22,436 nt of DNA from a virus. A program made the position numbers and the translations under genes. Numbering within the stretch: the stretch's first letter is position 1; each line of letters begins with the position of its first letter. Shown in pieces: positions 5,436-22,436 of this stretch. The notes beneath the pieces were generated by a model. It had not been told where the DNA came from and made no database searches. It was given only the letters and a program-made list of their open reading frames with translations. Location: IMG/VR virus record IMGVR_UViG_3300024259_000919, positions 1 through 22,436 of that record; one strand, given 5' to 3'.

Positions 5436-6638
5436 CTAGCTGATCCGCACGTTGATGGCGGAGATGGTACCGGCCGAGGTGCCGGGGGTCGCGCCGTCGC
5501 CCTTGCCACGCATGGAGATCACGATGTATGGAGCATTCGCTCCGCCCGAGCGCCCGTGCCAGTTGTTCTCGGCGACGGTGGCCGGCGTGACCTGATTGTT
5601 TCCGGATGCGTCGAAGTGGTCGGCGGCGAGGAGCCCGATGCTGGCGCGCATGGTGATCCGCGTGCTGGCCGCGTTCCACTGCGCGACGTTGCTGGTGGCC
5701 CCTGACGTCAAGTTGTTGTTGCTCACACGCTGGACGTTGACCGTTCTGTTCGCGCCGTCGTACTTGAGGATCGCGCGGATGCTCTCGTCTGCGGCGGTGT
5801 TCGCCACGTCTTCGTTCGCGATGTAGACGCTCATGTTGTCGCCGCTGATGCTGCCCATGCTGGTGACGTTCAGCGAGATCGTCACGCAGATCGACTGGGC
5901 GAGGTAGAGGTCGGCGAGACTCAGCCCGTCCAGGCGCGCGACGAGGAAGACCTCCCGGTCGGCGGGGTCGGTGGTGCCGGTGATGCTCCAGGTGATGACG
6001 TTGGTCCCGACCTCGAGGGTAGCCGCAGCGAGGTCGCCGCCCGCGGCTTCGTATGCGTACAAGCCCGACGTCGTGTCCTGCGATCCGTCGCCGTTGGCGC
6101 TCCAATCGTAGGTGCCGGAGAGGTCGACGTCGTGGGAGTACGGCGTCAGGTTCGTGTCAGAGAGTCCCGCGTTCAGCTGCGCGAGCGTGCCGCTGTGCGC
6201 GGTGCCGATGACCAGGGAAGCGTGGGCCGATGCGTCGGTGTCGATGCCGGGGCCAGGCACGCCCGTGAGGTCTGCGTTCCCGTGGGTGTGCGCACTCGGC
6301 GGTCTCGCGTCTCCGCTGTCGTCCAGGGTCGCGTCGGATACGGCGGAGTTGAGTTCGGCCAGCGTGCCCGCGCCGAGGTTGTCAATGTCGGTGGCGTGCG
6401 GGTTGTTGGTGGCGCCGGCGTGCGTGGTCGCGTCGGTATCGACCCCAGCCCGCGCCACGCCCGCGTAGGTGGTCCCGCTGCGGGTGACGACCTGGCCGTC
6501 GGCCACAACGCCAGCGGTCAGCGTGGTCGGGCCGCCGGTCTCGCGGAGACCTTCGGCGACGTCAACGAAGGTGTCGTCGTCGGCGTCGTAGTCCCCGGTC
6601 CGCATCCGGTCGCTCGGGATGGTTACGTATCCAGACAT
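5436..6638 (-). CDS. Tail appendage or fibre protein with internal repeats, 400 aa
   Basis: It begins at the ATG 6638-6636, ten bases after its neighbour ends. The N-terminal 60 residues look like a virion-attachment region. Two copies of a module follow: GVDTDATTHAG (65-75) with GTLAELNSAVSDATL (91-105), then GIDTDASAHAS (131-141) with GTLAQLNAGLSDTNL (150-164). Between them is SAHTHG, an HxH of the kind that can hold metal in trimeric fibres. Residues after about 170 form a beta-rich receptor-type domain ending in NVRIS. Composition (alanine, threonine, aspartate, glycine) and the location after the tail hub support a receptor-binding fibre. The receptor is unknown. Confidence 0.7.
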   Translation of the reverse strand: MSGYVTIPSDRMRTGDYDADDDTFVDVAEGLRETGGPTTLTAGVVADGQVVTRSGTTYAGVARAGVDTDATTHAGATNNPHATDIDNLGAGTLAELNSAVSDATLDDSGDARPPSAHTHGNADLTGVPGPGIDTDASAHASLVIGTAHSGTLAQLNAGLSDTNLTPYSHDVDLSGTYDWSANGDGSQDTTSGLYAYEAAGGDLAAATLEVGTNVITWSITGTTDPADREVFLVARLDGLSLADLYLAQSICVTISLNVTSMGSISGDNMSVYIANEDVANTAADESIRAILKYDGANRTVNVQRVSNNNLTSGATSNVAQWNAASTRITMRASIGLLAADHFDASGNNQVTPATVAENNWHGRSGGANAPYIVISMRGKGDGATPGTSAGTISAINVRIS

Positions 6639-8618: not shown

Positions 8619-11600
8619 CACACCTCCTCGCGGATCGTAACGGTCTGGAATCGTTCGAGTTCATCGACGCCTTCATCCCCAAGCGGGGACTGTCGGAATA
8701 GGTCAGTGCGGACGCGGCCCCACAGCATGCAATCCCGCCGCGTTTCAAACTGCGACGAGGATCCGCCGGTGAGGTATTCAACCGCAGTCAACAGGAGGAT
8801 CGGCAACTTGGCGCCCTCTGCCCGCCGGATCGTCCCGTCGAGTACGCGCGCCGCGTCACGGACGGCGGCCATGGGCAGCGAGGATCCGGACTTGCCTAGG
8901 ATGTAGTCGGGGGACGGTTGGGTCGTCCGGGTCTGCGTCAGGTCGGTGACGCCCTCGGCCAGCGCGAAGGTGATTTCGCGGGACTGCTTCCCATCGGAGC
9001 GGGCAACGCTGCCCCCGCCCGGGCGCTCGACAATGGAGACGGGGTTCAGCGCGACCCACGCCACGCCGTTATCGATGGACGTCCCCAGCATCGCCAGGTG
9101 CCCGATCGCAATCGTCCCGATTTCAAAGTACCCGGCGGCGGTGGTCTGGACGGGGATCCGGATCCGCAGTTGCGAGTACGTCGCCGAATAGTCCTGGACG
9201 ACGGCGCCGAACGCTTGACGCCAGATCGCGCCGGTGCCCGACGACACCTCCCCGCCGTTCATCTCGTCGGTGCCGAAGGTGACGGTAGGCAACTTCGTCC
9301 CGCTGCCGGCCCACGCGCCTTCGGTGTTGTGCTTGATCTTCACGTACTGCGCGGCGCCCTCGCTGCCGGCGGCGCCAAGGTCGAAGGTATCCCCTACGTG
9401 GTCTTCGTTGTAGAGGTAGTTGTCGGCCGTCGTTGTCCCACCGGACGGGATGACCTTGCGCCCCTTGCGGGTAAACCCGAGGTTCTTGTACCCGACGGCG
9501 GCATCCATGTAGGCAATCTGGACCCACGCCGCACCGTTGTATCCGTCCAGGTACGCATCCTTGAAGTTGGCGCCGAAGAGGAACGCGCCGATCGCCGAGT
9601 TGTCTAGGTAGCCTTCGTCCGTGAATAGCGCCTCAGTGTCCCACACGAGTTCGACTTGCGAGCCGTCATCGACCGACCGCCACGTCTGCGACGGGCTTGA
9701 CGAGATGCGCGGGTCCACGTTGGCGATCGGGTAGTCGTATGCGGCCTTGACGTCCCACGCATCCCCGATCCGGGTGGGTCCAGACTCGGCGGCGAGGCGA
9801 ACGCCGTCGGTGATCCCCGTCAGGTGCGGCGAGTAGGATCGCGTCCGCAGGCATTCCGGGTTGGACCAATTCGAACCGAAGATCGAATAGTACGCCGGGT
9901 CCTCCGCCCACCCGTTGACGAGGTAGCAATAACCAACCATCGTCCAGTACGAATCATTCGCTGCGGCGGTGAGGTGGCCCCACTGGATCCTGTTCGTGTT
10001 CGCGGTAACGCCAGCGTCGACGGTGGTCCCCGCCTCGCTGGTCACCCACTCGCGGACATGGGCGTCGGCGGCGTGCCACGTCTGAACCTCGCCGCTTCCA
10101 CCGGCTGCGGGGAAGTGCTGCAAGGCGATCCGAATGTGCCGCTCCTTGGTCATGTCCAGCGCGACGGGAGATCCCACGGTGGCGGTTCCGGCGACGTCGT
10201 AAACCGTGTATCCGGCGGCGTCGAACCTGACTTCAACCTCGACTTCGTAGGAGCCGTTGTCGGCGAGGCGCACACCCACCGCGATCTGATTCGTCGAGTC
10301 ATCGCCACCGGACGGAACGCGGACGGCAACCTCCACCATGGCGGTATCGTGGGCTACCGCGTTCGCTTTGAGGTAAGGCTCCGTCTGCCCCGCCGTCGTG
10401 GAGATATGGCAATCCCCCGTTGTCGCCGTCAGCGTGGTCGCGCCTCCGCCACCGCCGCCCCAGCCCATCGAGCCGGGAAGCTGGATCGGGAGGTAGAGAT
10501 CCCCGTCGCCGGTGGCGCCTACGTCGTCGGCCCATGCGAGAGCGTTGACGTCCTCGAATGAGTCGTCCACGTCCGACGTGGAATCGGGCATGGTGTGGCG
10601 GGAGTAGCCGCCCAACCACACGCAGGCGACAGACTCGCCCTCGAAGTTCTGCGCCGGTGACGCCGCCCACCTCGACAGCATCGCCGCGCGCCCCTCGGTG
10701 GAGGCGATGTCGAACTTGGAGAAGTAGTCGAGTTTGTCGCCGAAGCTCCATGCCTGGAGATTGAACGCCGCCCACGATGCGCCGTTGTCCGATGACCTGG
10801 CGGCGTGGACTTCGTAACGCGTGTTGCCCGCGTCTTTGCTGGTAACGATGGCGTAAGCGACCCCGGTATCGTCGACCCACGTGGACCCGTGCGTGCCAAG
10901 GTTCGTCGCCATGGTTGAGATTGCGGCGCGGTCGCCGGTGGTGAGCAGGTCCCACGCGGTCGCCACGCGGTAGCTATACCATCCGTTTGTGGACGGGTGA
11001 TCGGTCCAGCATGAGACAAGGAACCCACCGCCGGGGAGTGCCGACACGGACGGGCAGAGGAAACCTGCGCTCAGGGATTGCGTAGACCCGACGCTTGACA
11101 GGTTTCCGCCGTTGTCGCTGGACGCCCACTGCTGAGTCACAAACACGGCGGTGTCCACGTAGTCGAAGGCGAGGAGGATTTGCCCGCCGTTGTACGCCGC
11201 CTGTAACCGCAGGATCGTCGGGACGGACCCGCCGCTATCTAGGATCGCTTCGGTACAGATACGGGCGCCGAGGAGCGCCCACGTTGCCCCGTCATCGTCG
11301 GACGAGTAGCAGTCAATTTGTGCGCCGTCGGGCGTGACGATGAATAGAAGAACGCGCGGGGTGGAGGAGTCGTCGTAACGGGTGGGCAACTGGACCAGGC
11401 ACGACTGCCGCGTGTTTGTCGTGTCCTGGACGCCGATGTTAATCCCCGGTCCCCACGTCGACGTAGCCCGCGCGTAGGGCCACACCTCGTAATTGCCGGA
11501 GCTGTCGACAATCCCGGACGCGAGGAGGTTACCGGACGCGAGGCGGAGCACGTTCAGGTGCGGTTCAAGAACGTTCGTGGTCTGGTAGTACAGCGGATCC

Positions 11601-11938
11601 CAGCCGGTCACGGCGTTGTAGCAATCATGCCCCTTGTAGTCGTCGGTCCCGTCGCCCGCCTCCACGTCCCGCCACACCATGCCGCCGTCACCGTGTCGGG
11701 GATGCCCCGCACGCCGCGTCAGGATCTCCAGGTGACCGGCGTTGGACTGATCTCCCGCGCCCATAAGCATGAGGTCAGAATCGGACTGCGCCACAGGTTG
11801 TCCCGTATGCGGGCCGCTTTCGTTGAACGTCGATTCCGTCGCACCGGCCCCGGACGCCTTCAGCGTGGCGTTCGTGATTCGCTCGTCAGGGACCAAGATC
11901 CCTTGGTGCGTGGTCCTGCTTGTGTTCTGGTTACCCAT
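8618..11938 (-). CDS. Large tail-tip protein with Asp-box propeller, 1106 aa
   Basis: The ATG at 11938-11936 shares one base with the tape-measure stop; upstream sequence in frame belongs to the tape measure. Residues 120-450 look like a sialidase-type beta propeller, with Asp-boxes (SxDxGxTW) at SDDDGATW (213-220), SSDNGGNL (273-280, degenerate) and SSDNGASW (382-389). WGGGGGGATT (493-502) is a flexible joint, followed by a jelly-roll or concanavalin-like region to about 720 and further beta domains to the end (TIREEV). The sialidase FRIP motif is not seen, so binding or another glycan activity is as likely as sialidase. It lies where distal tail proteins are encoded. Confidence 0.75.
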   Translation of the reverse strand: MGNQNTSRTTHQGILVPDERITNATLKASGAGATESTFNESGPHTGQPVAQSDSDLMLMGAGDQSNAGHLEILTRRAGHPRHGDGGMVWRDVEAGDGTDDYKGHDCYNAVTGWDPLYYQTTNVLEPHLNVLRLASGNLLASGIVDSSGNYEVWPYARATSTWGPGINIGVQDTTNTRQSCLVQLPTRYDDSSTPRVLLFIVTPDGAQIDCYSSDDDGATWALLGARICTEAILDSGGSVPTILRLQAAYNGGQILLAFDYVDTAVFVTQQWASSDNGGNLSSVGSTQSLSAGFLCPSVSALPGGGFLVSCWTDHPSTNGWYSYRVATAWDLLTTGDRAAISTMATNLGTHGSTWVDDTGVAYAIVTSKDAGNTRYEVHAARSSDNGASWAAFNLQAWSFGDKLDYFSKFDIASTEGRAAMLSRWAASPAQNFEGESVACVWLGGYSRHTMPDSTSDVDDSFEDVNALAWADDVGATGDGDLYLPIQLPGSMGWGGGGGGATTLTATTGDCHISTTAGQTEPYLKANAVAHDTAMVEVAVRVPSGGDDSTNQIAVGVRLADNGSYEVEVEVRFDAAGYTVYDVAGTATVGSPVALDMTKERHIRIALQHFPAAGGSGEVQTWHAADAHVREWVTSEAGTTVDAGVTANTNRIQWGHLTAAANDSYWTMVGYCYLVNGWAEDPAYYSIFGSNWSNPECLRTRSYSPHLTGITDGVRLAAESGPTRIGDAWDVKAAYDYPIANVDPRISSSPSQTWRSVDDGSQVELVWDTEALFTDEGYLDNSAIGAFLFGANFKDAYLDGYNGAAWVQIAYMDAAVGYKNLGFTRKGRKVIPSGGTTTADNYLYNEDHVGDTFDLGAAGSEGAAQYVKIKHNTEGAWAGSGTKLPTVTFGTDEMNGGEVSSGTGAIWRQAFGAVVQDYSATYSQLRIRIPVQTTAAGYFEIGTIAIGHLAMLGTSIDNGVAWVALNPVSIVERPGGGSVARSDGKQSREITFALAEGVTDLTQTRTTQPSPDYILGKSGSSLPMAAVRDAARVLDGTIRRAEGAKLPILLLTAVEYLTGGSSSQFETRRDCMLWGRVRTDLFRQSPLGDEGVDELERFQTVTIREEV

Positions 11939-14169
11939 CAGGCGCCACCTTGGTACGGATCGCGTAGGTAAGTCCGCGAGGGCTGCCGGGTGCGGACCAA
12001 TTCCCATACAGGCCCGGAGCGGAGCCGCAACGACTCGTACTCCATGGCCTGCGTGGTCTGGTTATTGACGTGGACGGATACGAAGTCGGGGCCCGTCGCC
12101 GGTCCCTTTTCCAGCTCCTGCAACGCATCGTGCCCGCCTGCGTTGCGGACGGCTTGGCGGCTGCTAACGTGCTCGCCTGCCTCCAGCGTTGCGGAGACCT
12201 CGCCGCCCGTGTGGAACGTCGGCATCTCGGCGGCGACGATGGCGGTCTGGGCGGTGCCTACTCCGGCGGCGGCGATCATGGCGGCGATGCTTTGGGGGTA
12301 GCCCATCTCGTTGGCTTTGGCCACTGCGGCGGCGGTGCTTACCGTGACGTTGGCCAGGGCGGCAATCTTGTTGGCGACGAAGGCTTCGGCCTCGGCTTTG
12401 CGCCTGGCCTCGGTGCCCTCTTCGGTGCTGCGGACAACCGCGTCCGTAAGTCCCCGCTGGATCATCATCGCGGAGTCGGCGTAGGACTGGACGTAACCCA
12501 GTTTTTCGGCAGCGGCAGCGGCGCTCATCGCCCGCTCTTTTTCGATCTGCTCCTCCCGCCACTTGGCGAACTCCTTTTCGAAGTCCCACTCCTCGTCGCG
12601 GATCCTGAACCGCTCGCCCGCGCCCTCCCAAACCAAGTCGGTCTTGCCCTTCTCACCGGCGGCGTAGATTTCCAGCAACCGCAGGTTGTTGGCGTGCGCC
12701 TCGTCGATGATGCCGGTGAACTCGCCTTGGGGTCCGGTGTCGCGGGCGGGGCCGCGTGGGCGGCTCTTTCGTTCCTCGGTCGGCGCCGGCCTCGCGGCCC
12801 CGGCAAGCCCCAACATTCGGAGCATTTCCAGCTGTGAGGATAGGTGGGCGTTGGTGTCCGATACCGCCCCGCCCATCCCTTCCATTTTCTCCTGCCATGC
12901 CTCGATGCTGGACCCGCTGGCGTCCAAGCCCGTTCCCAGGCTTTCCGTCCGCCACGAAACGTCACCCATCTTGTCGTCGAGGATCCCGAGGTCGAGGGCC
13001 AGCTGGGACGTCGTCTGGTCGAGGATCCAACCCTTGCCGATCAGCTCGCTGCCCGACTCGGCCAGGGCGCCCCAGCTTGCGGCCAGGGCGGTGGTTCTGA
13101 TCTCCCCCTCGGACATCGAGTCGAAGACGTCGTAAAGCAACCGGGGAAGTAACTGAACGGGCGCTTTCAATACGTTGTAGACGTTGACCAGACCTTCGGT
13201 CGCCTTGACAACGGTGGTGGTCTTCGACGCCAGCGCCTCAATCCCGCCGAGTAGATCGCTGTCCGCGAGTGACGCCAGCGCCGCGCCGAGTGCCCGGATC
13301 TCTCCGGACTCACGCGCCTGGGCCATCATCTCGCGGATGTTGTCGGTGGTCTCGCGGATCGCCGGTGACACCTCGGCCAGCAGGTCGGACTTGACGCCCA
13401 TCCACGCGAGACCGAGGAGGTGCGCGGAGTCGGCGAGGGCTTCCGCCTCGGCGGCGGCCTCATTGGAGATCAAGCCCGCGCGCTCGATCTCATCGGCGGC
13501 GTTCTTCAACGCACCGGAGCCGCCCTTGAACGCCGGGAGTAGCTTGCCGCCCGATCGGCCGAGGAGGGTTAGCGCAACCTGCGACTTGACGCTTTCCACG
13601 GTGATGGTGTCGAGCCCTTCGGCCATGAGCGCAAGTTGGTCTTCCGCGTTCAGCCCGGTGAAGTCCTCGACCGCTAGCCCCATCTTGTCCAGGGCGCGGG
13701 TCATCGAGGCGGAACCGTCGGCGGCGTCTATCAGATTCTTGCGTAGCTTGGAGACGACCTCAGAGCCCTTGACGCCTCCGCGGGTCAGCAGGTCAATCGC
13801 GCCGACGATCCGCTGGTAGTCTTCCGCGGACTCGCCCACCTCGCGGGCTTCCTTCGCGGTCTGGTTTATCTGGTCGTTCAGGTCCGCGAACTTGGAGATC
13901 AGGCGCCCGACTTGCTGGACAGCAACGCCACCGATCACGGCGGTGAAGATGCCCTTCAGCCCGGCGACCGACTGCCCGTACTTCTTCGGCCCGTTCTTCC
14001 TCGCCGCCTTCCACGCCTTCGTGGATTCCTTCTCAGCCTTCTTCAGCTGGCGGGTCAGCTTCGTGACCATGCGCTTTGCTTCAACGTCGGTCACGCCGGG
14101 GATCTTCTTCAACTCCTTCCGCAGGTCGGTGATGTCGGCGCGGAAGGATACGTTGGCTTCGCGACCCAT
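11938..14169 (-). CDS. Tail tape measure protein, 743 aa
   Basis: Length, helical and alanine-rich character and place after the tail chaperone identify the tape measure, which sets tail length and passes into the cell with the DNA. The N-terminus (about 1-60) is a basic coiled coil with KKAEKESTKAWKAARKNG. A hydrophobic stretch follows (GLKGIFTAVIGGVAVQQVG, 71-89). The long middle is helical. The C-terminal region has AAAVAKANEMGYPQSIAAMI (hydrophobic, common in tape measures) and FHTGGEVSATLEAGEHVSSR, a widespread tape-measure ending. At roughly 1.5 angstrom per residue the tail would be on the order of 110 nm, which is inference. No lytic enzyme domain is obvious. Confidence 0.9.
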   Translation of the reverse strand: MGREANVSFRADITDLRKELKKIPGVTDVEAKRMVTKLTRQLKKAEKESTKAWKAARKNGPKKYGQSVAGLKGIFTAVIGGVAVQQVGRLISKFADLNDQINQTAKEAREVGESAEDYQRIVGAIDLLTRGGVKGSEVVSKLRKNLIDAADGSASMTRALDKMGLAVEDFTGLNAEDQLALMAEGLDTITVESVKSQVALTLLGRSGGKLLPAFKGGSGALKNAADEIERAGLISNEAAAEAEALADSAHLLGLAWMGVKSDLLAEVSPAIRETTDNIREMMAQARESGEIRALGAALASLADSDLLGGIEALASKTTTVVKATEGLVNVYNVLKAPVQLLPRLLYDVFDSMSEGEIRTTALAASWGALAESGSELIGKGWILDQTTSQLALDLGILDDKMGDVSWRTESLGTGLDASGSSIEAWQEKMEGMGGAVSDTNAHLSSQLEMLRMLGLAGAARPAPTEERKSRPRGPARDTGPQGEFTGIIDEAHANNLRLLEIYAAGEKGKTDLVWEGAGERFRIRDEEWDFEKEFAKWREEQIEKERAMSAAAAAEKLGYVQSYADSAMMIQRGLTDAVVRSTEEGTEARRKAEAEAFVANKIAALANVTVSTAAAVAKANEMGYPQSIAAMIAAAGVGTAQTAIVAAEMPTFHTGGEVSATLEAGEHVSSRQAVRNAGGHDALQELEKGPATGPDFVSVHVNNQTTQAMEYESLRLRSGPVWELVRTRQPSRTYLRDPYQGGA

Positions 14170-14645
14170 CAGACTCCCCTATCCGCGAGGGCGAAGAGGT
14201 CGGCTTCTAGTGCCTCGGCAAGCCCCGCCTCGGCCTTGCGCGCGGGCTTGCGGATCAACTCGGTGAGCGGCTTCTTTTCTATCCAGGCATCCCGCGGGGC
14301 GCCCTTGCCATGCTGCGACTTCAGGTACGCCGTCTGCGCCTGCGTCTTCGACGCTTGCCGTAGTTCGGCGATGGTGTACCGGCTCCACTTGATCCGCGCG
14401 GTGTACGGCTCGCGGTTGCTGATCGTCGTGACCAGGGCGTCGGGGCGTAGCGTCGTCGTGACCCGGAACCCGCGGTAGCTGTCGCCGTGGCGGTGCGGCC
14501 ACTCGTCGCCGGCTCGCTTGACGATGAGACGCGCGACCCGCTCGAACTCCGCTTTGATGCGCGGGGCTACGGCGTCGGCCATCGCGTCGAGGTCGTCGAG
14601 TGCGCCGGTGATGCTGACCGTCGATGTGCCGTCACTTCTTCGCAC
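14169..14645 (-). CDS. HK97 gp10-like / tail-completion candidate, 158 aa
   Basis: The frame is open to an ATG at 14681, but that start would overlap almost half of the small gene 14632-14745. I prefer the GTG at 14645 (VRRSDGTSTVSITGALDDLD), whose overlap is 14 bases and which has GGCGGA before it. The middle (RVARLIVKRAGDEWPHRHGD, then SYRGFRVTTTLRPDALVTTI and SNREPYTARIKWS) follows the pattern of gp10-type neck and tail-completion proteins: a helix, then a W-PxxxG-S turn, then three strands. Those genes normally precede the tail tube, so this position after the chaperone is unusual. The C-terminus is a basic helix. Function is a guess. Confidence 0.55.
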   Translation of the reverse strand: MRRSDGTSTVSITGALDDLDAMADAVAPRIKAEFERVARLIVKRAGDEWPHRHGDSYRGFRVTTTLRPDALVTTISNREPYTARIKWSRYTIAELRQASKTQAQTAYLKSQHGKGAPRDAWIEKKPLTELIRKPARKAEAGLAEALEADLFALADRGV

Positions 14646-14745
14646 GGATCCGCCGTTCGGCCAGAAGCAGCACCCGATCATCGTGGCTCAGAGTGAGCCA
14701 CCAAGACGGCGGGTGTCCGTGCTCCCGGCATATCTCCAGCATCAT
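14632..14745 (-). CDS. Tiny second tail-chaperone ORF, 37 aa
   Basis: This frame is short and easily missed. The ATG at 14745 overlaps the chaperone stop as ATGA (a second ATG follows at once), and TGA is at 14634-14632. The product has EICREHGHPPSWWLTLSH and then a leucine-rich basic helix (RVLLLAERRIRAK). A helix, a PPxWW turn and a Leu-rich helix are typical of the small T-like part that follows the first chaperone (G) in siphoviruses and is often joined to it by a -1 frameshift. It lies in the -1 frame of the chaperone, so readthrough fusion or coupled restart is possible. No classic slippery heptamer is seen. Confidence 0.55.
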   Translation of the reverse strand: MMLEICREHGHPPSWWLTLSHDDRVLLLAERRIRAKK

Positions 14746-15128
14746 TCGGTCGGCCCCTCCACGGGCTCCGCGGAGAAATTTGCGGTAGACGCGACCTCCT
14801 GTTCACTGACCTGGAATTCGACCAGTGCGTCGGCGAGGTCTCGCCCAGCGTCGGCGATGGTGGACCAGGGCATCCCAGCGCCGCGTAGGTCGTCGATCAC
14901 GCGCCCGCCATAGTCCAGGCCGTCAGCGGCGAGGAGGCGGATACTGGGCTGCTTCTCCCCCGGCCACGGGGCAGCCGCCGGCCAGCACGCGCCGACGGCG
15001 GCACCGTAGCCGCGGGGAAGGTTGCGACCGAGAACGCCGATGATGTCCAGGATCGCGGAGTAGGAAGCGGGGCGGTGAAGTTCGATCTCCCCGTCCCCGA
15101 CTCGGATGGTAGTAATTGCCTGCGCCAT
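14742..15128 (-). CDS. Tail assembly chaperone (G-like), 128 aa
   Basis: I chose the ATG at 15128, with GGAGGACACATC directly before it; a GTG five codons earlier lies inside that SD. The product starts MAQAITTIRVGDGEIELHRP, then has helices (SYSAILDIIGVLGRNLPRGY and VIDDLRGAGMPWSTIADAGR) and an acidic end. Genes between the tail tube and the tape measure in siphoviruses almost always encode tail chaperones that keep the tape measure soluble during assembly, and size and helical content fit. Identification is mostly by position. Confidence 0.7.
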   Translation of the reverse strand: MAQAITTIRVGDGEIELHRPASYSAILDIIGVLGRNLPRGYGAAVGACWPAAAPWPGEKQPSIRLLAADGLDYGGRVIDDLRGAGMPWSTIADAGRDLADALVEFQVSEQEVASTANFSAEPVEGPTE

Positions 15129-15154
15129 GATGTGTCCTCCCACGGGCAGCTGGT

Positions 15155-15652
15155 TTAGGTCTCGGTCACGGTACCGTAAACGGTGCCGCTGAACGCGATC
15201 GTGTTGGGCTCGCCCTCGCTCAGGTCGCGAGTGACGTGCACGTCGGTGACGGTGCTGACGTGATCGGCGGTGTCGCCGAAGTCAGTCCCCTCGATGGTCA
15301 GTGCCATGTCGACCGTGTACACGTCGCCGAGGGCGGTGCTGGTCGAGATGTTCCCGCTGTAGCTGTTCCGCCGCAGCAGGAAGTCCGACACGGTGGTCTT
15401 CGTCGCGTCGGACAGCCCGCCCATGAGCGTGGAGAAGCTGATCGCCGGGTGCGCGTCCTGACCCTTGCGGAGCGACACGAGCGACCCGCGGGAGTAGTAC
15501 GGACGCACATCCTTGTGCGACTCGCCCAGCCCGGTGATCGACATATCGCCGACCTCCAGATCGACGGTCAACGACACGGGAGATCCGGTGCCGTCACTGA
15601 GGACCAGCGATCCGTCGGTCCATTGTTTCGCGATTGCGGATTCGTAGGCCAT
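15155..15652 (-). CDS. Major tail (tube) protein, 165 aa
   Basis: It starts at the ATG 15652 after AAAGGGGCC. The product begins MAYESAIAKQWTDGSLVLSD and is beta-rich throughout, with a probable sandwich: SPVSLTVDLEVGDMSITGLG, then YTVDMALTIEGTDFGDTADH, then NTIAFSGTVYGTVTET at the end. The RGSLVSLRKGQDAHPAISFS segment resembles the N-terminal loop and strand region of tail-tube proteins. It precedes the chaperone, as tube genes do. The length is typical of siphovirus tube subunits (about 140-250 residues). The tube makes the tail lumen through which DNA leaves. Confidence 0.75.
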   Translation of the reverse strand: MAYESAIAKQWTDGSLVLSDGTGSPVSLTVDLEVGDMSITGLGESHKDVRPYYSRGSLVSLRKGQDAHPAISFSTLMGGLSDATKTTVSDFLLRRNSYSGNISTSTALGDVYTVDMALTIEGTDFGDTADHVSTVTDVHVTRDLSEGEPNTIAFSGTVYGTVTET

Positions 15653-15667
15653 GGTCTCGGCCCCTTT

Positions 15668-16933
15668 CTAGCGGTCGACCGCGAGGTAGATGTAATCGCA
15701 GTCCACCGTCTTGGACGCAGCGCCCGCGGAGATGGTCACGATCGTGGGGTAGAGGTTGACGTCGGGGCTGACGCCCACGTCGCCGGTGAGGGTCAACTCG
15801 GTGGTGCCGTCGATGGCGAACGCGATGGTCGCGCCGTCGGCGCTCACGGTCAGCGTGAGGCGCTGATAGACGCCGTTCGCGGGGGCTACGGTGGTGGTCG
15901 CGTTGCCGGCGTCCTGAACGGTGCCGTCCGCTGCCACGCCGAACCACTCGTCGGTGTCGGCGGCGGGGTCGAACAGGAACCCCACGCAGTCGTCGGCGAC
16001 GAGGGAGATGGTATCCCCGCCACCGATGGTCGCGGGGATCTCCAGCGCGGTGGAGTCGGTCAGCCCGACGAAGACCGCGGATCCGGTGATGTCGGCGAGG
16101 TTCACGCGAGCCTCGAAGATGAGGTTCCCGCTGTCGGCCTGGACCGGATGCGCGCCCGCGAACTGTGATCCGTCGGCCACGATGCCGGAACCCGCCGCGC
16201 CGGAGGTGAGCCGGATGGATCCGCCCTCGGCGGCGACGACATCGGGATCCGCGGCGGCGCCGTCGCTGCCCTTGTTCAGGATCCACGCGCTGTCCAGTTC
16301 GGTGAACCCGGCCTGCTTGTCGTTGAAGTCGTCGAACAGGCGATTGACCAGCGCGGGCGTCAGGCGCTTGGCGAAGAGTCCGACCTCCTGAAGCTGGCCC
16401 TCGGCGGTCGCGGTCGCGAAGTATCCGCCAGCGTCTTCGGCCCCGACCAGTGCAGTCCCCTCGCCGTTGGCTACGCTGGCCAGGTCGCCCCACTTGAGGT
16501 CGAGGGCGTCCAGGGAGGCGTAGAAGGTCTGGTCGTCGGTCAGCACGTTGTCCTCGGTGTACGGGCGCGTGGTGCTGTCGGTGCCGCCCAGGGCGGATGC
16601 GAACAGCTCCTGGAGCGCGGCCTCCACGTCGGTGGCGGTCCAGTACGCGCCGGCGTCAGTGAGGGAGATGTCTCCCGCTGCCTTCGTCCCGGCCTCGATG
16701 GCGTTCCATCCGGTGCCGCCATTGAAGGTCAGATAGGCCAGCGTGTCGACGCTGGAGGCGTCGTTGCGCAGATACAGCATGTGCGTGTGATCGAAGCCCT
16801 CGTCGCCCGACGGGGCGCCCGCGCCGGAGATGATGACCGGCGAGGTGAGATCCGCTTCGTTGGCTGCGGACCGGATGGCAACTCCGACGGCGGCGACGGC
16901 CTTGCGGAGCCTGTGAGAATAGATCGAAGCCAT
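15668..16933 (-). CDS. Virion structural protein with ConA/LamG-like domain, 421 aa
   Basis: The first ATG in the frame is at 16948, but ATGGAAGGAAAGACCATGG shows that GGAAGG is the SD for the second ATG at 16933, so I chose that one. Residues 1-200 have scattered helices and beta parts (DHTHMLYLRNDASSVDTLAY; DDQTFYASLDALDLKWGDL). Residues about 205-421 look like a lectin-type jelly roll: GSIRLTSGAAGSGIVADG, GNLIFEARVNLADITGSAVF, YQRLTLTVSADGATIAFAID and DVNLYPTIVTISAG. This could bind glycans on the host or serve as a decoration. It is coded between a tail-completion gene and the tube gene. Confidence 0.7.
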   Translation of the reverse strand: MASIYSHRLRKAVAAVGVAIRSAANEADLTSPVIISGAGAPSGDEGFDHTHMLYLRNDASSVDTLAYLTFNGGTGWNAIEAGTKAAGDISLTDAGAYWTATDVEAALQELFASALGGTDSTTRPYTEDNVLTDDQTFYASLDALDLKWGDLASVANGEGTALVGAEDAGGYFATATAEGQLQEVGLFAKRLTPALVNRLFDDFNDKQAGFTELDSAWILNKGSDGAAADPDVVAAEGGSIRLTSGAAGSGIVADGSQFAGAHPVQADSGNLIFEARVNLADITGSAVFVGLTDSTALEIPATIGGGDTISLVADDCVGFLFDPAADTDEWFGVAADGTVQDAGNATTTVAPANGVYQRLTLTVSADGATIAFAIDGTTELTLTGDVGVSPDVNLYPTIVTISAGAASKTVDCDYIYLAVDR

Positions 16934-16948
16934 GGTCTTTCCTTCCAT

Positions 16949-16964
16949 ACGGGCTTGCGCCCGT
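16949..16964 (-). promoter_or_regulatory. GNRA-capped hairpin in the leader of the structural gene
   Basis: On the minus-strand RNA, ACGGGC-GCAA-GCCCGT forms a perfect six-pair stem with a GCAA (GNRA) tetraloop, just after the stop at 16971 and ahead of the SD of the gene starting at 16933. No U-run follows, so it is not a classic terminator. It may protect a cleavage end or slow readthrough. Confidence 0.55.
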
Positions 16965-16970
16965 GGCTTG

Positions 16971-17414
16971 CTAGGTCAACGCATAGGCGTGTTTGACACC
17001 TAGCCGAATCTCGCCGATGAAGTACCGGCCCTCGAGTTCGATGGGAACGAACCGCGGGAGTACCCCGCGGAAGATGACGTGCGTGTATAGCGGCCAGTTT
17101 GCGTGGATGGCGACTAGCAGATCGTCGCCCGCGTCGAGGGCTGCGTCGTAGTCGGTGATCGCCGCATCACCCCGAATGCGCCAGAGGTACCGGACAAGGA
17201 TCTCAGTCTCGGCTTCGACTACCGCCTTGCGCCGGCCGCCCGTCGGTGCCGTCGGGTTCGTCGCTCCCACGCCTAGCGCGAAGGTCTGGTGGATCTCCGT
17301 GCTCGCGTCGTAGGCCATGAAGTCGTAGACCCACCGGGACTCGGTCCAGCCCGACAACGCCTCAAGGGTCGTTGCGATGGAGCCGCGGATCTCGCTGGGC
17401 GACGTCGCTGTCAT
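16971..17414 (-). CDS. Head-tail joining / tail terminator-like protein, 147 aa
   Basis: The start is the ATG at 17414 (MTATSPSEIRGSIATTLEAL), which overlaps the stop of the upstream gene as ATGA; the longer reading upstream would run through the preceding gene. The N-terminal helix is followed by SRWVYDFMAYDAS, then EAETEILVRYLWRIRGDAA, then ALDAGDDLLVAIHANWPLY and strands FVPIELEGRYFIGEIRLGV. A helix, then a mixed alpha/beta core with a long alpha helix, fits the tail-terminator (lambda gpU-like) fold. Position just ahead of the tube-associated genes supports it. Identity is by order and pattern only. Confidence 0.6.
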   Translation of the reverse strand: MTATSPSEIRGSIATTLEALSGWTESRWVYDFMAYDASTEIHQTFALGVGATNPTAPTGGRRKAVVEAETEILVRYLWRIRGDAAITDYDAALDAGDDLLVAIHANWPLYTHVIFRGVLPRFVPIELEGRYFIGEIRLGVKHAYALT

Positions 17415-18142
17415 GCGAGCCACACGGTCGGGCGGGCTGCCTTGCGGTCGGTGGTGGAGTCCGGGTCGCCGTCGTCGTCGGTGTCGTACAGGAAGTTGGT
17501 CGAGTTGAACGCGCGCTCGTACGCGGAGCGGTAGTGCTCGGCCTTGCGGCTGTACGCCTCGTTGAGTCGGCTGGACAGGTCTTCGAACACCAGCGAAAGA
17601 ACCAGGTTCATCCACACGTCTCGCAGTGCGGACGGTGAGACGATCAGATTCGGGCGGTTGCCGAGTGCGACCAGCCGGAGCTGAATCATCACGTCGGCCT
17701 CGTCGATGTAGTCCTGGAAGTCGGACAGCGACGTGATAGCGGCTGACCCGCTCGGGTCAAGTGCCGACTCCCGGCGGAAGATGTCCACGTCCGTGATCGT
17801 GGGGTAGAGACGCGCGCGAACACAGGCGCCGTCGTTGCGGGGCGTGTGCGTGATCGTGTCGGGCATGACCAGCGACCACTCGATGACCCAGCCCTCGCCG
17901 AGCTCCTGTGCTCCGAGGACTGCGGACGTGACCGTGTACTGCGCCACGCTCGACACGATGCTGACCGCGGCGGCGGTGATCACGTCCTGGCCTGCGGTGT
18001 TGCGGATCGTGACGGTGCCCGACGACGGAGCTATCACGCCCCCGTCGATGTAGCTGGGCGCTTTGATGAGGTTGTCGCGCCCCTGCTCTAGCATCTCCGG
18101 GCCGAGAAAGCGGAAGGTATACCGGGCGTCGGTGATGCTCAT
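17411..18142 (-). CDS. Head-tail connector / adaptor candidate, 243 aa
   Basis: The start ATG at 18142 overlaps the preceding gene's stop as ATGA. The N-terminal half is beta-rich (GTVTIRNTAGQDVITAAAVS and QYTVTSAVLGAQELGEGWVI). The C-terminal half is helical (SLSDFQDYIDEADVMIQLRL; SALRDVWMNLVLSLVFEDLS; RLNEAYSRKAEHYRSAYERA), the last being a typical adaptor-type helix bundle, with an acidic end (DTDDDGDPDSTTD). Helix-rich small proteins after the portal and capsid genes usually join head to tail. The beta-rich start resembles neck proteins, so it may be a two-domain connector. Confidence 0.6.
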   Translation of the reverse strand: MSITDARYTFRFLGPEMLEQGRDNLIKAPSYIDGGVIAPSSGTVTIRNTAGQDVITAAAVSIVSSVAQYTVTSAVLGAQELGEGWVIEWSLVMPDTITHTPRNDGACVRARLYPTITDVDIFRRESALDPSGSAAITSLSDFQDYIDEADVMIQLRLVALGNRPNLIVSPSALRDVWMNLVLSLVFEDLSSRLNEAYSRKAEHYRSAYERAFNSTNFLYDTDDDGDPDSTTDRKAARPTVWLA

Positions 18143-18426
18143 TGGTCGCCCCCGTTGCCTACCTGGCGATCACGCCACCGCTTGTGGCTCCCCTGCGCCT
18201 TCTCACGCGCATACTTCGGGCTGGCCCCGTTGCGGGTCATCTGGCCGGCGAACTGCGCCGAGGCGCCCGGGTCGACTTCCCACAGACGGGGGGTCCGCTG
18301 GAATGCAGAGACCACGCGCCACGCCTCGCCGCCGCAATGCTCACAGGTGACCGCCCGCTCCTCGTAGGGGACGACGGTTTCGGTGACCTTGCCGCAGGCG
18401 TCACAGGCGTGGTCGTACAAGGGCAT
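18139..18426 (-). CDS. FmdB-type zinc-ribbon protein, 95 aa
   Basis: Start ATG at 18426 directly follows the previous stop (TAG-ATG), with GGAG about 11 bases upstream. The N-terminus has two zinc knuckles: MPLYDHACDACGKV (C8, C11) and CEHCGGEAW (C28, C31), exactly the order of the FmdB putative regulatory family. These have about 50-100 residues, and phage versions often stand among head or tail genes. The rest has a basic stretch (YAREKAQGSHKRWRDRQ) that could touch nucleic acid. It may regulate late transcription or be a small virion component; neither can be shown. Confidence 0.75.
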   Translation of the reverse strand: MPLYDHACDACGKVTETVVPYEERAVTCEHCGGEAWRVVSAFQRTPRLWEVDPGASAQFAGQMTRNGASPKYAREKAQGSHKRWRDRQVGNGGDQ

Positions 18427-18969
18427 CTAGGTATGGTCTCCGATGATGATGATCTCGTACGTCTGGTTGGCGGACAGGGCGCCGAGGTGGAGGATGTTCG
18501 CGGTCGAGTTCGTCACGGTGCCGCCGGTCGGGCTGTACCACTGCCAGTGGCCACCGGGGGGAACGATGCTGGTCGATGCGTCCGTCTCGAACGGGGTGGT
18601 CACGCCGGCCCACGCATCGGCCGCGCCTGCGCCGTCGGTGCCGCCGCCGATCTGAATGTAGCCAGCCCCGCCCGCGGTGTTCGTATTCTTGATCAGGATG
18701 GCCTTGACGTTCGCCATGATGATCGCCCGCAAGGTGGTTCCGGCGGAGTCCTCCTGTGACAGCGCGAACAGGTCCAGGTTCGTGTGCGCCGTGGCGGTGA
18801 TCGTCTCGGTGAAGACGTACACGTCATCGGCGGTGCTGGTCGCGGTGCCGTCGGGCAGCGAGAGGACGTGCGACACCTCGGGGAACTCGCGCACGGCTTC
18901 GCCACCGGGGAGGGAGTACGCGCGGAGCGCCTTGACGGTCGAGGTAATGCCGGTAACCACGGTGGTCAT
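18427..18969 (-). CDS. Head-region structural protein, 180 aa
   Basis: The ATG at 18969 lies three bases after the previous stop. The SD is weak: a GAAGAAGGGC run inside the end of the preceding gene. The product starts MTTVVTGITSTVKALRAYSL, continues with beta strands (DDVYVFTETITATAHTNLDL, IMANVKAILIKNTNTAGGAG, YIQIGGG) and ends QTYEIIIIGDHT. The phrase VKAILIKNTNTAGG is typical of small phage structural proteins that hold a jelly-roll or Ig-like fold. Located between capsid genes and connectors, it may be a decoration or stabilising protein. I do not assign a precise role. Confidence 0.6.
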   Translation of the reverse strand: MTTVVTGITSTVKALRAYSLPGGEAVREFPEVSHVLSLPDGTATSTADDVYVFTETITATAHTNLDLFALSQEDSAGTTLRAIIMANVKAILIKNTNTAGGAGYIQIGGGTDGAGAADAWAGVTTPFETDASTSIVPPGGHWQWYSPTGGTVTNSTANILHLGALSANQTYEIIIIGDHT

Positions 18970-18972
18970 TGG

Positions 18973-19674
18973 TTAGCCCTTCTTCTTCGGTCTTCCTGGC
19001 CCGCGCTTGGCGGGCACTTCGGGTACTTCGGTTTCGACTTCCTCGCCGGGAACCGTGGCGGCCTGCATGGTCTCCAGCCGGTCGCGCTCGCGTGCCAGCC
19101 GGTGCGGGTTGTTCTCGCCCAGCGCGCGTTCGACCCGCTGACGCTGCCCGTCGACGATGGCTTCGGGTACCGTGTCGTCGGGGGCGGTGACGTAGCCCTC
19201 GGTGATGAGGGCGCGCAGCCATGCGCGGTATCCCTCGGTGTCGGACTTGACGATCACGCGGTTTCCGACCTGCTTCGGGATCTCGAAGATCGACAGGTGG
19301 ACCGTACCCCCGCGGCCGGCATAGGCGCGGACGTAGGAATCACGGTCGGGGTCGGCGAGGCGCGCGGCGTCTTCGGGGATGACCTTCCACCCCTTGCGCT
19401 CCAACTCGGCCTTGGCCAGCGACAGCCCGCCATCCTTGTTGACGGCGGCGACCCCGGGTTCGGCTGTCAGCTTGCCGAGGATGGGGAGCCACTCGTCGCC
19501 GAAGACGCCCCAGCGTTCCGGGTGCCACTTGTAGAGGAACGTCGCCGACGCTGGCAGGTTCAGTAGCTTCTGCTCGACCGCGGGGCGCGCGATCGGGACT
19601 TCCTTGAACTGCTGAGTGTTGGGCGAGTTTGCGGGGCGCCGCTTGGGTGCCTTGCTTCCTACGGTTGCGGCCAT
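18973..19674 (-). CDS. Hypothetical head-region protein with AT-hook-like end, 233 aa
   Basis: It starts at the ATG 19674, immediately behind GGAGGACACACC. N-terminus is basic (KAPKRRPANSPNTQQFKEVP), then come mixed alpha/beta parts (LPASATFLYKWHPERWGVFG; DEWLPILGKLTAEPG; KQVGNRVIVKSDTEGYRAWL), a charged helix and a C-terminal KRGPGRPKKKG, an AT-hook-like core (RGRP or PGRP between basic residues). Proteins of this size and position follow the capsid gene in many actinophages, but their function is generally unknown. The gene may be translationally controlled by an anti-SD element upstream (19678-19746). Confidence 0.65.
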   Translation of the reverse strand: MAATVGSKAPKRRPANSPNTQQFKEVPIARPAVEQKLLNLPASATFLYKWHPERWGVFGDEWLPILGKLTAEPGVAAVNKDGGLSLAKAELERKGWKVIPEDAARLADPDRDSYVRAYAGRGGTVHLSIFEIPKQVGNRVIVKSDTEGYRAWLRALITEGYVTAPDDTVPEAIVDGQRQRVERALGENNPHRLARERDRLETMQAATVPGEEVETEVPEVPAKRGPGRPKKKG

Positions 19675-19677
19675 GGT

Positions 19678-19755
19678 GTGTCCTCCTTGCCTGGGTTAGT
19701 TGGGGACGCCCCACGGAGGACACCAGATGGGGCGCCCCCGTGGGGCCATTGCCCC
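19678..19755 (-). promoter_or_regulatory. SD/anti-SD switch-like element after the capsid gene
   Basis: In the minus-strand RNA after the capsid stop (19764), GUGUCCUCC (19723-19715) is the exact complement of GGAGGACAC (19686-19678), the SD of the next gene, with a 28-base loop. A competing stem pairs GCCCCACGG (19746-19738) with CCGUGGGGC (19716-19708), overlapping the first by two bases. A further five-pair hairpin GGGGC-AAUG-GCCCC sits at 19755-19742 and conflicts with the second stem. This could limit translation of the gene at 18973-19674, or be a processing or attenuation site. No U-run follows. Confidence 0.5.
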
Positions 19756-19763
19756 TCGCCGAC

Positions 19764-20705
19764 CTATCGGTCGGTGATGATTGAGACGCCCATGGAATCC
19801 TGGATCTCCACAACGCCACAGTAGTAGTTGCCCACGATCCGGTTGTAGTCGCCCACCTCGTCGTAGTCGGTGCCGACGCGGATCTTCGTGCCCGCCGGGA
19901 TCCCCATCTCGGGAATCAGGCCGGTGCTCATGTCGCCGTAGCCGATGGCTCCGCGACCCCACATTCCGCCCGCGCTGTCCGCGCCACCGTTGGCGGTCGG
20001 GATGAGCGAGGAGGCGAACAGGTCGACGCCGTTGAAGCTGCCGACGTAGTCGGGCCCCTTGATCGCCAGCATTTCCTGCGTGGCGGCGATGAACTGGAGG
20101 GCGCCGGCCTCCGCGCGGATGCTGCCCTGCAGGTCGGTGACCTGGACGGGGTACAGCATGGCGGCATAGGGACCGCCGATGCTGGCCTGGGTCAGCGTGT
20201 ACTGCGCGTCGAAGAAGTCGTCGACGCTCATGTCGACGGTGGTGGTTCCGACGGTGCTGGAGAAGTCGTCCACGATACCGGCAAACATCTCGACCAGTCG
20301 CATCCGGGCGGCGCCGACCATGTCCTGGGCCAGCCGGGACAGCTCCGACGGGTCGCCGTTCAGGCTCGCGGTCAACGCGGCCATGCCGGTCACCTGGCGG
20401 TAGAGGGCCTGGCGGGCGATGGTCAGCTGCGGCGAGGCGTTGGTCAGCGCGGTGACGCTGGCGTCGGCGTTCTCGGCGACGGCCGCCATCCGGTTGTATC
20501 CGTCGAGCCCGGACAAGGGCAGCTCGAACACGTTGGCGCCCTTACCCGCGAAGTCGCCGAGGTACATGATCGCGGGATGGTCGAGGATGCCGGATCCGCG
20601 ATCGGCGGTGAGGAGGTTGATCTCCTGGTGAAGCTGGGCGGCGAGGCGAATATCACCGGCGGCGGCGAGAGTCGCGAGATTGATGGCATTGGCATCGTGG
20701 GGCAT
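19764..20705 (-). CDS. Major capsid protein, 313 aa
   Basis: Position after a scaffold-like gene, length (about 300 residues) and strand pattern identify the HK97-fold capsid. The N-arm has DANAINLATLAAAGDIRLAA, then LPLSGLDGYNRMAAVAENAD (E-loop region), then a spine helix around GDPSELSRLAQDMVGAARMR and the P-domain SVDDFFDAQYTLTQASIGGP. The end has YDEVGDYNRIVGNYYCGVVE and IQDSMGVSIITDR, a typical C-terminal beta strand. I see no HK97-type lysine-asparagine crosslink signature with confidence. The start ATG at 20705 lies behind GGGAG. Confidence 0.85.
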   Translation of the reverse strand: MPHDANAINLATLAAAGDIRLAAQLHQEINLLTADRGSGILDHPAIMYLGDFAGKGANVFELPLSGLDGYNRMAAVAENADASVTALTNASPQLTIARQALYRQVTGMAALTASLNGDPSELSRLAQDMVGAARMRLVEMFAGIVDDFSSTVGTTTVDMSVDDFFDAQYTLTQASIGGPYAAMLYPVQVTDLQGSIRAEAGALQFIAATQEMLAIKGPDYVGSFNGVDLFASSLIPTANGGADSAGGMWGRGAIGYGDMSTGLIPEMGIPAGTKIRVGTDYDEVGDYNRIVGNYYCGVVEIQDSMGVSIITDR

Positions 20706-20715
20706 GGTGTGAACT

Positions 20716-20760
20716 CCCGGAACGAAGGTTAGGGTTTCGCTGCCCTAACGCTGTTCCGGG
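20716..20760 (-). promoter_or_regulatory. Long hairpin in the capsid gene leader
   Basis: On the minus-strand RNA, CCCGGAAC (20760-20753) pairs with GUUCCGGG (20723-20716) and, inside, GUUAGGG (20749-20743 complement) pairs with CCCUAAC (20734-20728), with an internal loop of 3 by 4 bases and an 8-base apical loop. The final GGG of the outer stem is part of GGGAG, the capsid SD, 8 bases before the ATG. The inner arm GCGUUAGG (20751-20744) can instead pair with CCUAACGC (20820-20813) at the end of the scaffold gene. Two exclusive folds are thus possible. There is no U-run, so it is not a simple terminator. Confidence 0.6.
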
Positions 20761-20815
20761 TGCGACCCGAGGCAAGCGCCTTAGTCTAGACCGATTCCGC
20801 GGACACGCGCAAGCG

Positions 20816-21418
20816 TTAGGACGTGGGGCCGTCCCGCTGCACCTTGTAGGCTGCGTACTCCGTCGGGGTCATCCTGGTAATCGCTGCGGCGTCGTAGGGG
20901 TCGGGGGCGTGCGGGTGCGGCTGCGTGCCAGCGTTCGCCGCGGGCGGCGTTGCGGGCGGTACGACGGCGGGCGCAGCCGGTGGGGCCGCAGGGGCGGCGG
21001 GTGGTACCTGTGCCGCGGGGGCGGCTGCCTTGACGTGGGGAGCGAGGAGAGCGGGCGGCTCGATGGCGCCGGATCGCATCCCGGTAACCCACTCGCCGAT
21101 CGTCGCGGGGCGCCCGTCGCCCAGTTTGCCGTAGCTGTCGAGAAAGCCGTCGACGACCTCAGCGGCGATCCCGGCGCTGGTAATCTGCTTGTACGCCTCG
21201 TGTCCCGTGGTCGCTGCGGTCAACTCCTCGCGGGCGAGGTCGAGTTCGGCGCGGACGGCGTCGATGTCAACGGCGCCCTTGCGTGCCTCCTCCAGCGCGG
21301 CGGCGGCCTGAGTCGCCGCGGTCTCGGCGGTCTTCCGCTTTTCGTTCACCTCGTCGAAGCGTTCCTTTGGGATTGCCTCGCCGATGTCTTGCGCGCAATG
21401 CGGACAGCTGAAGCCCAT
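20816..21418 (-). CDS. Scaffold-like protein, 200 aa
   Basis: Start ATG at 21418, with GGAGGACACACC before it. N-terminus carries CPHC (C5, C8), then a charged coiled coil (FDEVNEKRKTAETAATQAAA to about residue 75), an alanine- and proline-rich linker (APAAPPAAPAVVPPA), and a C-terminal helical piece TRMTPTEYAAYKVQRDG. Such a layout with a helical C-terminal capsid-binding end is typical of phage scaffolding proteins that guide capsid assembly and then leave. It sits between portal and capsid as expected. The N-terminal CPHC is not a standard scaffold feature. Confidence 0.75.
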   Translation of the reverse strand: MGFSCPHCAQDIGEAIPKERFDEVNEKRKTAETAATQAAAALEEARKGAVDIDAVRAELDLAREELTAATTGHEAYKQITSAGIAAEVVDGFLDSYGKLGDGRPATIGEWVTGMRSGAIEPPALLAPHVKAAAPAAQVPPAAPAAPPAAPAVVPPATPPAANAGTQPHPHAPDPYDAAAITRMTPTEYAAYKVQRDGPTS

Positions 21419-21434
21419 GGTGTGTCCTCCGGGG

Positions 21435-22436
21435 CTAGGGGGTGATCGGGTTGGCCGACCTCACGCGAGTTTCCGCGATGCGGGCGAGGTCGTCAACGGC
21501 CTGGCTCTCGCTTACGTTGTGGATGTATGCGTAAGCCATCGCGTCCGACATCAGCCCGCGGTCTAGGAGTTCGATCGCGTGGGTCCGTCGCGCCTCAAGT
21601 TCCTGCGGGGATAGCGGGATCTCCTGGTAGACGATTTCGTACCCGCTCTCCGGGTAGTTCGTGCCGGTGGTCCGGTTCAGGAGGATCGCGGACAGGGCTA
21701 CCAGCTCGGCGTCGGCGCGTGCGAACTGCGGGGCAAACTGCTTCTGGGCTTCGCGCTTGCCTTCGTTGCTCATGGCGATCGCGTAGCCGCTGCGGGCGGT
21801 GCCGCCCATGCGCTGGACGTCGCCCGCTGGGACTCCGGCGTCCTGGGCTAGCTGGGTCGCGCGGGATTCCAGCGTGCGCCAGAAGCCCTCCACGTCTGAC
21901 CCGGCAGCCCACTGGCCAACGGTGATGTTCTGCTGCTCGTCGCTCTCGGTCTCCATGAGAAGCAACGTCGCGGCGTCGGTCACGGTCTGGTGTCGGCTGG
22001 CCTGCGAGTCGGAGTCCACCGGGGCACCGCCAACGGGGCGGGCATTGACGCTGTACCGCTGCGGCCAGCTGGCATCTTTCATCAGGTGCAGGTGATGCGA
22101 GTTGCCCACCGCGAGGTTGAGCGATCCCTCGAACGCCTCGCGCATCGCCATGTAGTCCCATAGCCGATCGCCGGTGCGGCTGGCGTGGTAGAGGACGTAG
22201 GGCAGCACGGGATTGCCCGCGCTGTCGGTGTACGCCTGCGGCCAACCCTGCAACGGCTCACCGGTCCCGGGGTCGACGAGGAACGCTGACGACAGGTCCG
22301 CGCCCAGCGTCCCGCCTTCCTTGGCTTCGTACACGCCGAAGATCCCACGCTGCGGCTCGAGAACGTCGAAGGTCCACGCGGGGCGGTGGGTCTGCGGGTG
22401 GATGCGTAGTCGCGCCTCGCGGATGGCGATCGGCGT
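21435..22436 (-). CDS. Portal protein, C-terminal 333 residues (partial)
   Basis: The frame is open to the right edge, so the N-terminus is outside; a GTG at 22334 is inside the gene and not its start. The visible part has DYMAMREAFEGSLNLAVGNS, a tryptophan-rich central region, and a long helical part (RTLESRATQLAQDAGVPAGD, SNEGKREAQKQFAPQFARAD) ending in SPQELEARRTHAIELLDRGL. The long helix plus wing pattern and position before the scaffold and capsid genes identify a portal, the ring of twelve subunits through which DNA is packaged and released. Length with the missing part is unknown. The stop lies 16 bases before the scaffold start. Confidence 0.75.
   Translation of the reverse strand, partial: TPIAIREARLRIHPQTHRPAWTFDVLEPQRGIFGVYEAKEGGTLGADLSSAFLVDPGTGEPLQGWPQAYTDSAGNPVLPYVLYHASRTGDRLWDYMAMREAFEGSLNLAVGNSHHLHLMKDASWPQRYSVNARPVGGAPVDSDSQASRHQTVTDAATLLLMETESDEQQNITVGQWAAGSDVEGFWRTLESRATQLAQDAGVPAGDVQRMGGTARSGYAIAMSNEGKREAQKQFAPQFARADAELVALSAILLNRTTGTNYPESGYEIVYQEIPLSPQELEARRTHAIELLDRGLMSDAMAYAYIHNVSESQAVDDLARIAETRVRSANPITP

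Follow-up and report, generated by a model that had tools for sequence, protein, structure and literature searches.

A conserved pseudoknot element in phage capsid and scaffold gene leaders as a putative translational switch

Our analysis of the region upstream of the capsid gene in the window (the whole stretch of 22,436 nucleotides from IMG/VR virus record IMGVR_UViG_3300024259_000919) identified a leader element of ~36 nt (20775-20740, minus strand), absent from the original prediction for this DNA, in which a stem termed P1 encloses a compact H-type pseudoknot. The consensus of the element is GGGU[C/A]GCNCCCGNAACAGC. Based on sequence comparison and folding models, we propose that this region is a cis-acting leader RNA that functions as a translational switch, in which the Shine-Dalgarno (SD) site of the capsid gene would be more open when the element is folded; we place the probability of this reading at roughly 0.6. 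The original prediction had described two mutually exclusive RNA folds steering capsid translation, and compensatory changes in both folds support that idea, but the partner of the SD hairpin is a different one, namely the element at 20775-20740. The features of the region are listed in Table 1.

Table 1. Features of the capsid leader and its flanking genes in the window
Feature	Position	Strand	Remarks
Capsid gene, 313 aa, HK97-type fold	19764..20705	minus	Homology and structure model
Shine-Dalgarno GGGAG of the capsid gene	20714..20718	minus	Opening cost 7.7 kcal/mol in the free ensemble, 3.8 kcal/mol with the motif folded
Alternative SD hairpin	20716..20760	minus	Outer 20760-20753/20723-20716, inner 20749-20743/20734-20728
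P1 3' strand GGGCAG	20740..20745	minus	Swap control 0/300
Conserved core GGGUCGCACCCGGAACAGCG, H-type pseudoknot	20749..20768	minus	
S2 3' strand GCG	20749..20751	minus	
L3 GGAACA (conserved GNAACA)	20752..20757	minus	
S1 3' strand CCC	20758..20760	minus	
S2 loop strand CGC	20762..20764	minus	Pairs with GCG 20751-20749; compensated types CAC/GUG, GAC/GUC, CGU/ACA
S1 5' strand GGG	20766..20768	minus	Pairs with CCC 20760-20758; compensated types CGG/CCG, AGG/CCU, GGU/ACC
P1 5' strand UUGCCU	20770..20775	minus	Near the predicted transcript start
Candidate -10 TAGACT	20783..20788	minus	TAGGCT in L002, TAGCCT in L003
Candidate -35 TTGCGC	20807..20812	minus	Conserved in L002 and L003; 18-nt spacer to the -10
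Far arm of the original prediction, CCUAACGC	20813..20820	minus	Outside the conserved system; not kept in L002, L003, L004
Scaffold-like gene	20816..21418	minus	Weak Pfam PF06810 match, E 5.7e-6, below the curated cut-off

Homology and structure modelling indicate that the protein encoded downstream of the leader is a capsid protein. Related proteins match those annotated as major capsid proteins in Pelagibacter phage HTVC112P and phage DSL-LC06. When a structure was modelled with moderate confidence (pLDDT 69) and compared with the PDB, it resembled phage capsids and encapsulins (E down to 1e-11). Among the nine predicted late genes at 8618-22334 (minus strand), the scaffold-like gene was the sole one with a Pfam match, and a PHROGs comparison of seven late genes returned a single match, for the gene at 18427-18969; this near-absence of matches suggests that the window virus is far from described phages. 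Searches of cultured phages with the window leader (DNA) and with the window capsid (tblastn) gave no match. In the cultured capsid relatives HTVC112P and DSL-LC06 the scaffold and capsid genes are separated by gaps of just 14 and 29 nt, and the scaffold leaders that were read showed no motif.

Covariation across leaders shows that S1, S2 and P1 form a conserved structure. The loop of S1 pairs with the single strand 3' of it, as expected of an H-type pseudoknot, and this pairing has covariation support: in a 49-row alignment five of the six pairs change on both sides (0/500 shuffles), counts that are inflated since the rows were partly picked by pairing. Pattern scans for S1 and S2 and leaders chosen by protein are less biased. 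When S2 was scanned with a compensated change (loop A with 3' U), 12 contigs were recovered, four of them in capsid leaders (two distinct leaders), while none of the contigs recovered with the uncompensated combinations (seven for loop A with 3' C and 13 for loop G with 3' U) had its match in a capsid leader. The scan for compensated S1 (CGG/CCG) recovered 75 contigs, with about 33 in capsid leaders among the matches listed. The third S2 pair is often non-standard (A-G or C-A), so that S2 is best described as two firm pairs plus an optional third.

P1 is present as a stem of ~4-8 bp around the core in nearly all leaders, in diverse sequences (GCCG/CGGC, UGGGU/GCCCA, UGUGGA/UCCACA and UCGGAU/AUCCGA, among others). 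The 5' and 3' flanks of one leader paired far better with each other than did swapped flanks, at 12.5 versus 7.8 +/- 0.64 in the capsid class and 14.2 versus 9.7 +/- 0.78 in the scaffold class (0/300 in each). Six leaders (L074, L078, L082, L083, L086 and L014) carry the element twice in tandem, with the copies spaced 24-45 nt apart; between them, L074 and L082 have a strong GGCCGGG/CCCGGCC hairpin that takes up the 5' strand of P1 from the second copy. A separate arrangement was observed in a marine AT-rich clade (L126, L130, L131, L137 and L028), in which ACCC, the 3' strand of P1, is able to pair with GGGGUUUAC immediately ahead of the start codon; the arms covary (e.g., GUAAACCCC/GGGGUUUAC and GUUAAACCC/GGGGUUAAC).

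Dozens of independent leaders carry the element. A pattern scan of IMG/VR with GGGTCGCNCCCNNAACAGCG identified 26 contigs, most of which have the core in the leader of a capsid homologue, down to about 25% protein identity. For a sample independent of the motif, 80 loci were fetched by capsid protein alone and grouped into 26 leader clusters; a strict descriptor (S1, S2 and the A-rich loop) matched 20 of these (including L084, counted at a spurious site but also carrying a true variant), with 0.008 matches per shuffled leader, and close variants recognized by eye raise the total to about 24 of 26. When up to three mismatches were allowed, 15 of 22 records gave a match, and in each of these 15 the element was found at one locus per genome. 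Scanning 257 Gb of bacterial and archaeal genomes with GGGTCGCNCCCNNAACAGCG yielded 39 matches, close to the roughly 30 expected by chance according to our own estimate, mostly in coding frames, and none of the 39 was seen before a capsid gene; the element thus appears to be viral. It was found in none of 391 Clostridia-class genomes.

A second scan revealed that a form with an AGC loop precedes the PF06810-like scaffold genes of Bacillota-type phages. One such contig (L206) has the element and scaffold gene followed by genes for a head decoration-like protein and a major head protein, and in the cultured Flavonifractor phage Chenonceau (ON453904) the element immediately precedes genes annotated for a head scaffolding protein and a major head protein. 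In L171, L178, L201, L251 and other Bacillota-type phages, the element is shortly preceded by either a long hairpin or a terminator-like GC hairpin with a U-run, and the scaffold operon may therefore depend on read-through. A possible third gene context is represented by L234, where a copy with a good P1 (CAUCG/CGAUG), located on the minus strand near position 6421 of the reverse complement, precedes a 133-aa protein and then a 1232-aa fibre-like gene. Two leaders of another capsid type (L010 and L032) have a weak P1 and were set aside as possible chance matches. On another motif-bearing phage contig (L217, 13029-13169, minus strand), a tRNA is followed directly by a DUF3800-VIII RNA (Rfam RF03075).

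The hairpin of 8 bp plus 7 bp that had been predicted at the capsid start is present exactly as proposed, and it is stronger than its shuffled counterparts (-26.5 kcal/mol versus -16.7 +/- 2.9; z -3.4; 0/200 shuffles as good). On the minus strand its outer arm CCCGGAAC (20760-20753) pairs with GTTCCGGG (20723-20716) and its inner arm GTTAGGG (20749-20743) with CCCTAAC (20734-20728), so that, as the original prediction held, it reaches the GGG of the capsid SD (GGGAG, 20718-20714), upstream of the ATG at 20705. A plain terminator, already discounted there, was rejected here too, as no U-run lies 3' of the hairpin and no terminator was found; a tRNA mimic was likewise set aside, with no tRNA called.

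The element and the SD hairpin are mutually exclusive in the window clade: the hairpin consumes S1', L3, S2' and P1' of the element, and the two folds cannot coexist. In the window leader and those of its three closest distinct relatives, L002, L003 and L004 (4/4), the first ~40 nt fold as P1 plus S1 and the full leader refolds to the SD hairpin. Both folds show compensation among the relatives, in the inner hairpin (GUUAGGG/CCCUAAC versus GUUGAGG/CCUCAAC), the outer hairpin (CCCGGAA/UUCCGGG versus CCCGUA/UACGGG) and P1 (UUGCCU/GGGCAG versus GCACCU/GGGUGC and CCGCC/GGCGG). Over 32 capsid leaders the alternative helix is supported jointly (Fisher about 1e-5) and individually (<=0.05) in 10, the window leader included, by within-leader shuffles (the swap control was dropped for base-composition bias). 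Since about two thirds of the capsid leaders are individually non-significant, the alternative hairpin may be one of several downstream arrangements. Of the features expected of riboswitches, a conserved, structured aptamer-like element in the 5' leader is seen; an alternative fold that would alter expression signals is clear in the window clade but individually significant in 10 of 32 capsid leaders only.

The predicted consequence for translation depends on the gene context. With the motif fold held, the opening cost of the window SD falls from 7.7 to 3.8 kcal/mol, in energies that ignore the pseudoknot term; among 27 capsid leaders treated in the same way, the cost decreased by >1 kcal/mol in 13 and increased in two. 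In the scaffold leaders, the SD lies inside P1 in 12/12. From these opening costs and this placement, folding of the element is predicted to turn capsid ON and scaffold OFF. How large the effect on the window SD would be is uncertain, since this site is still partly paired in weak local hairpins when the motif is folded.

The original prediction had explained the switch through a different arm. There, the inner arm of the hairpin would alternatively pair with 20813-20820, and ribosomes finishing the scaffold gene would cover this far arm and so alter the fold at the capsid start. The complement does exist, GCGTTAGG matching CCTAACGC at 20813-20820 over exactly 8 nt (p 0.007 by shuffling in this single sequence), but the pairing is absent or displaced in L002, L003 and L004 (p 0.06, 0.39 and 0.71), all of which have intact leaders and capsid genes (capsids 67-88% identical to that of the window). 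In the alignment of these relatives the far arm drifts, whereas CGGGTCGCACCCGNAACAGCG is nearly fixed; of the stems proposed, it is the hairpin that is maintained with compensatory changes in the L002-L004 clade, and the far-arm pairing is not. In addition, the candidate promoter TTGCGC-18-TAGACT (20812-20783) is located just downstream of the far arm, so an mRNA from this promoter would not contain that arm. Moreover, a large marine clade has a ~455-aa fibre-like gene, and not the scaffold, upstream of the motif, and in Bacillota-type phages the element precedes the scaffold, so that a link to the end of scaffold translation cannot hold as a general rule. No conserved alternative arm in or near the upstream gene, as translational coupling or attenuation would need, was found among these relatives. 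The scaffold-coupling model is already largely refuted, and we consider it the least credible of the explanations discussed here.

The position of the element relative to promoters suggests another interpretation, in which the pseudoknot is a stabiliser of the mRNA 5' end or a signal for RNA polymerase or antitermination (put-like), that is, a fixed structure on the most abundant late mRNA, with the SD hairpin separate or incidental. In 32 capsid leaders the best sigma-70-like promoter score is 8.2/12 versus 5.0 in shuffled sequences (the generic promoter scan of the window did not list the TTGCGC-18-TAGACT pair), and the promoter-like site typically ends 3-21 nt before P1, so the capsid mRNA would begin almost with P1 and start base-paired, as such a role would have it. 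A fixed structure would also fit the limited number of leaders (10 of 32) in which the alternative helix reaches significance by itself. This interpretation accounts poorly for most scaffold leaders, where no promoter was seen next to the element, for the location of P1 on the SD in every scaffold leader, and for the mutually exclusive folds with compensatory changes kept throughout the window clade; it is possible, and in our judgement unlikely. A plain SD-blocking hairpin or RNA thermometer with no sensing element would agree with the stable folding of the full leader over the SD, but would leave unexplained the near-invariant core and the covarying pseudoknot in leaders that have no such hairpin, and is very improbable. 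A tentative proposal, and a specific form of the translational switch that we favour, is assembly feedback, in which free scaffolding (or capsid) protein would act on the element as its RNA operator and excess scaffold would turn capsid up and scaffold down. Consistent with it, the motif occurs once per genome where found, before capsid or scaffold, the predicted SD effect is opposite in the two gene contexts, as this model needs, and autoregulation of scaffold is known for phage P22. Of 22 motif records, 15 have a PF06810-like scaffold at E <= 0.1, but most of these matches fall short of the cut-off and control genomes match as well (8 of 14); in addition, scaffold sequences are very divergent and the RNA core is nearly fixed, which an unchanging ligand would explain more easily. 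We therefore regard this specific form as doubtful.

For the translational switch itself, the following course of events is proposed. The capsid mRNA would start just upstream of 20775, as suggested by the promoter-like sites, and its first ~36 nt would form P1 around the pseudoknot, with S1 (GGG/CCC), S2 (CGC/GCG) and an A-containing L3, as indicated by covariation. Once made, the 3' part of the leader would invade this structure and give the 8+7 bp hairpin over the SD, in line with the folding predictions and the compensatory changes of the window clade. Judging from the energies, the SD would be easier to open if the pseudoknot is kept (capsid ON) and closed if it is lost. Some partner is hypothesized to bind and stabilise the pseudoknot; we infer the existence of such a trigger, as we do the transcription start and the sign of the effect. 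In the scaffold leaders, with the SD in P1, the folded element would mean OFF, and one signal could thus act on both genes, upwards on capsid and downwards on scaffold. As the trigger, free scaffolding protein would agree with this opposite logic. The near-invariance of the core favours an unchanging partner, such as a small ligand or host factor, and the restriction to capsid and scaffold genes with reversed polarity favours an assembly signal such as free scaffold. In its broadest version, which we offer as speculation with the odds against it, a virus-specific RNA switch would be spread across different capsid families and probably different host phyla, its pseudoknot sensing free scaffolding protein or another assembly signal and acting on capsid (up) and scaffold (down) through opposite placement of the ribosome-binding site.

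No gathering-level match to Rfam 15 was obtained for the element in the window or in 25 motif loci, and at E 10 the window leader and one scaffold leader gave only two chance-level matches. Among the papers searched, none was found to describe the motif or print its sequence. The 2017 Weinberg survey reportedly names GP20-a/b RNAs near PF06810 genes, from which the element is separated by the negative Rfam scan only. On the basis of these comparisons, we classify the element as a cis-regulatory phage leader RNA of a new class, resembling riboswitches in architecture only. The balance between scaffold and capsid in phages is an old question, as with the autoregulation of scaffold in P22, and a defined RNA target would allow direct tests; the element offers such a target, with about 20 nearly fixed nt, and numerous uncultured phages carry it, as does at least one in culture (Chenonceau). 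If a small molecule were bound, the element would represent a class of riboswitch dedicated to virion genes, and we know of no precedent for that.

Several known systems share properties with the element. Like translational riboswitches of the preQ1/SAM-II type, it is a small conserved leader pseudoknot with a variable downstream region and a refolding that affects the SD, and the tandem copies of some leaders add to the likeness; unlike them, it is virus-specific, lies on structural genes instead of metabolic ones, has no Rfam match and a much tighter loop, and its ligand is putative. The leader of the phage T4 gene 32 mRNA contains a pseudoknot involved in autoregulation, and the element, likewise a pseudoknot in the 5' part of a phage mRNA, may also control how the downstream gene is translated, but its sequence and gene differ, P1 encloses the knot and the partner protein is hypothetical. 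With P22, the element would share post-transcriptional control of scaffold/capsid stoichiometry; scaffold as ligand is a hypothesis for the element. Frameshifting pseudoknots of the luteovirus type have a short S1, a 3-bp S2 and an A-rich loop, expected in the S1 minor groove, and the likeness is one of fold only, as the element lies in an untranslated leader, has an enclosing stem and is associated with no slippery site in a reading frame. Finally, the put antitermination RNAs of phage HK022 are structured RNAs just downstream of a phage promoter, as the element would be in capsid leaders, but put consists of two tandem hairpins, whereas the element is a pseudoknot that also occurs where no promoter is visible and that overlaps the SD.
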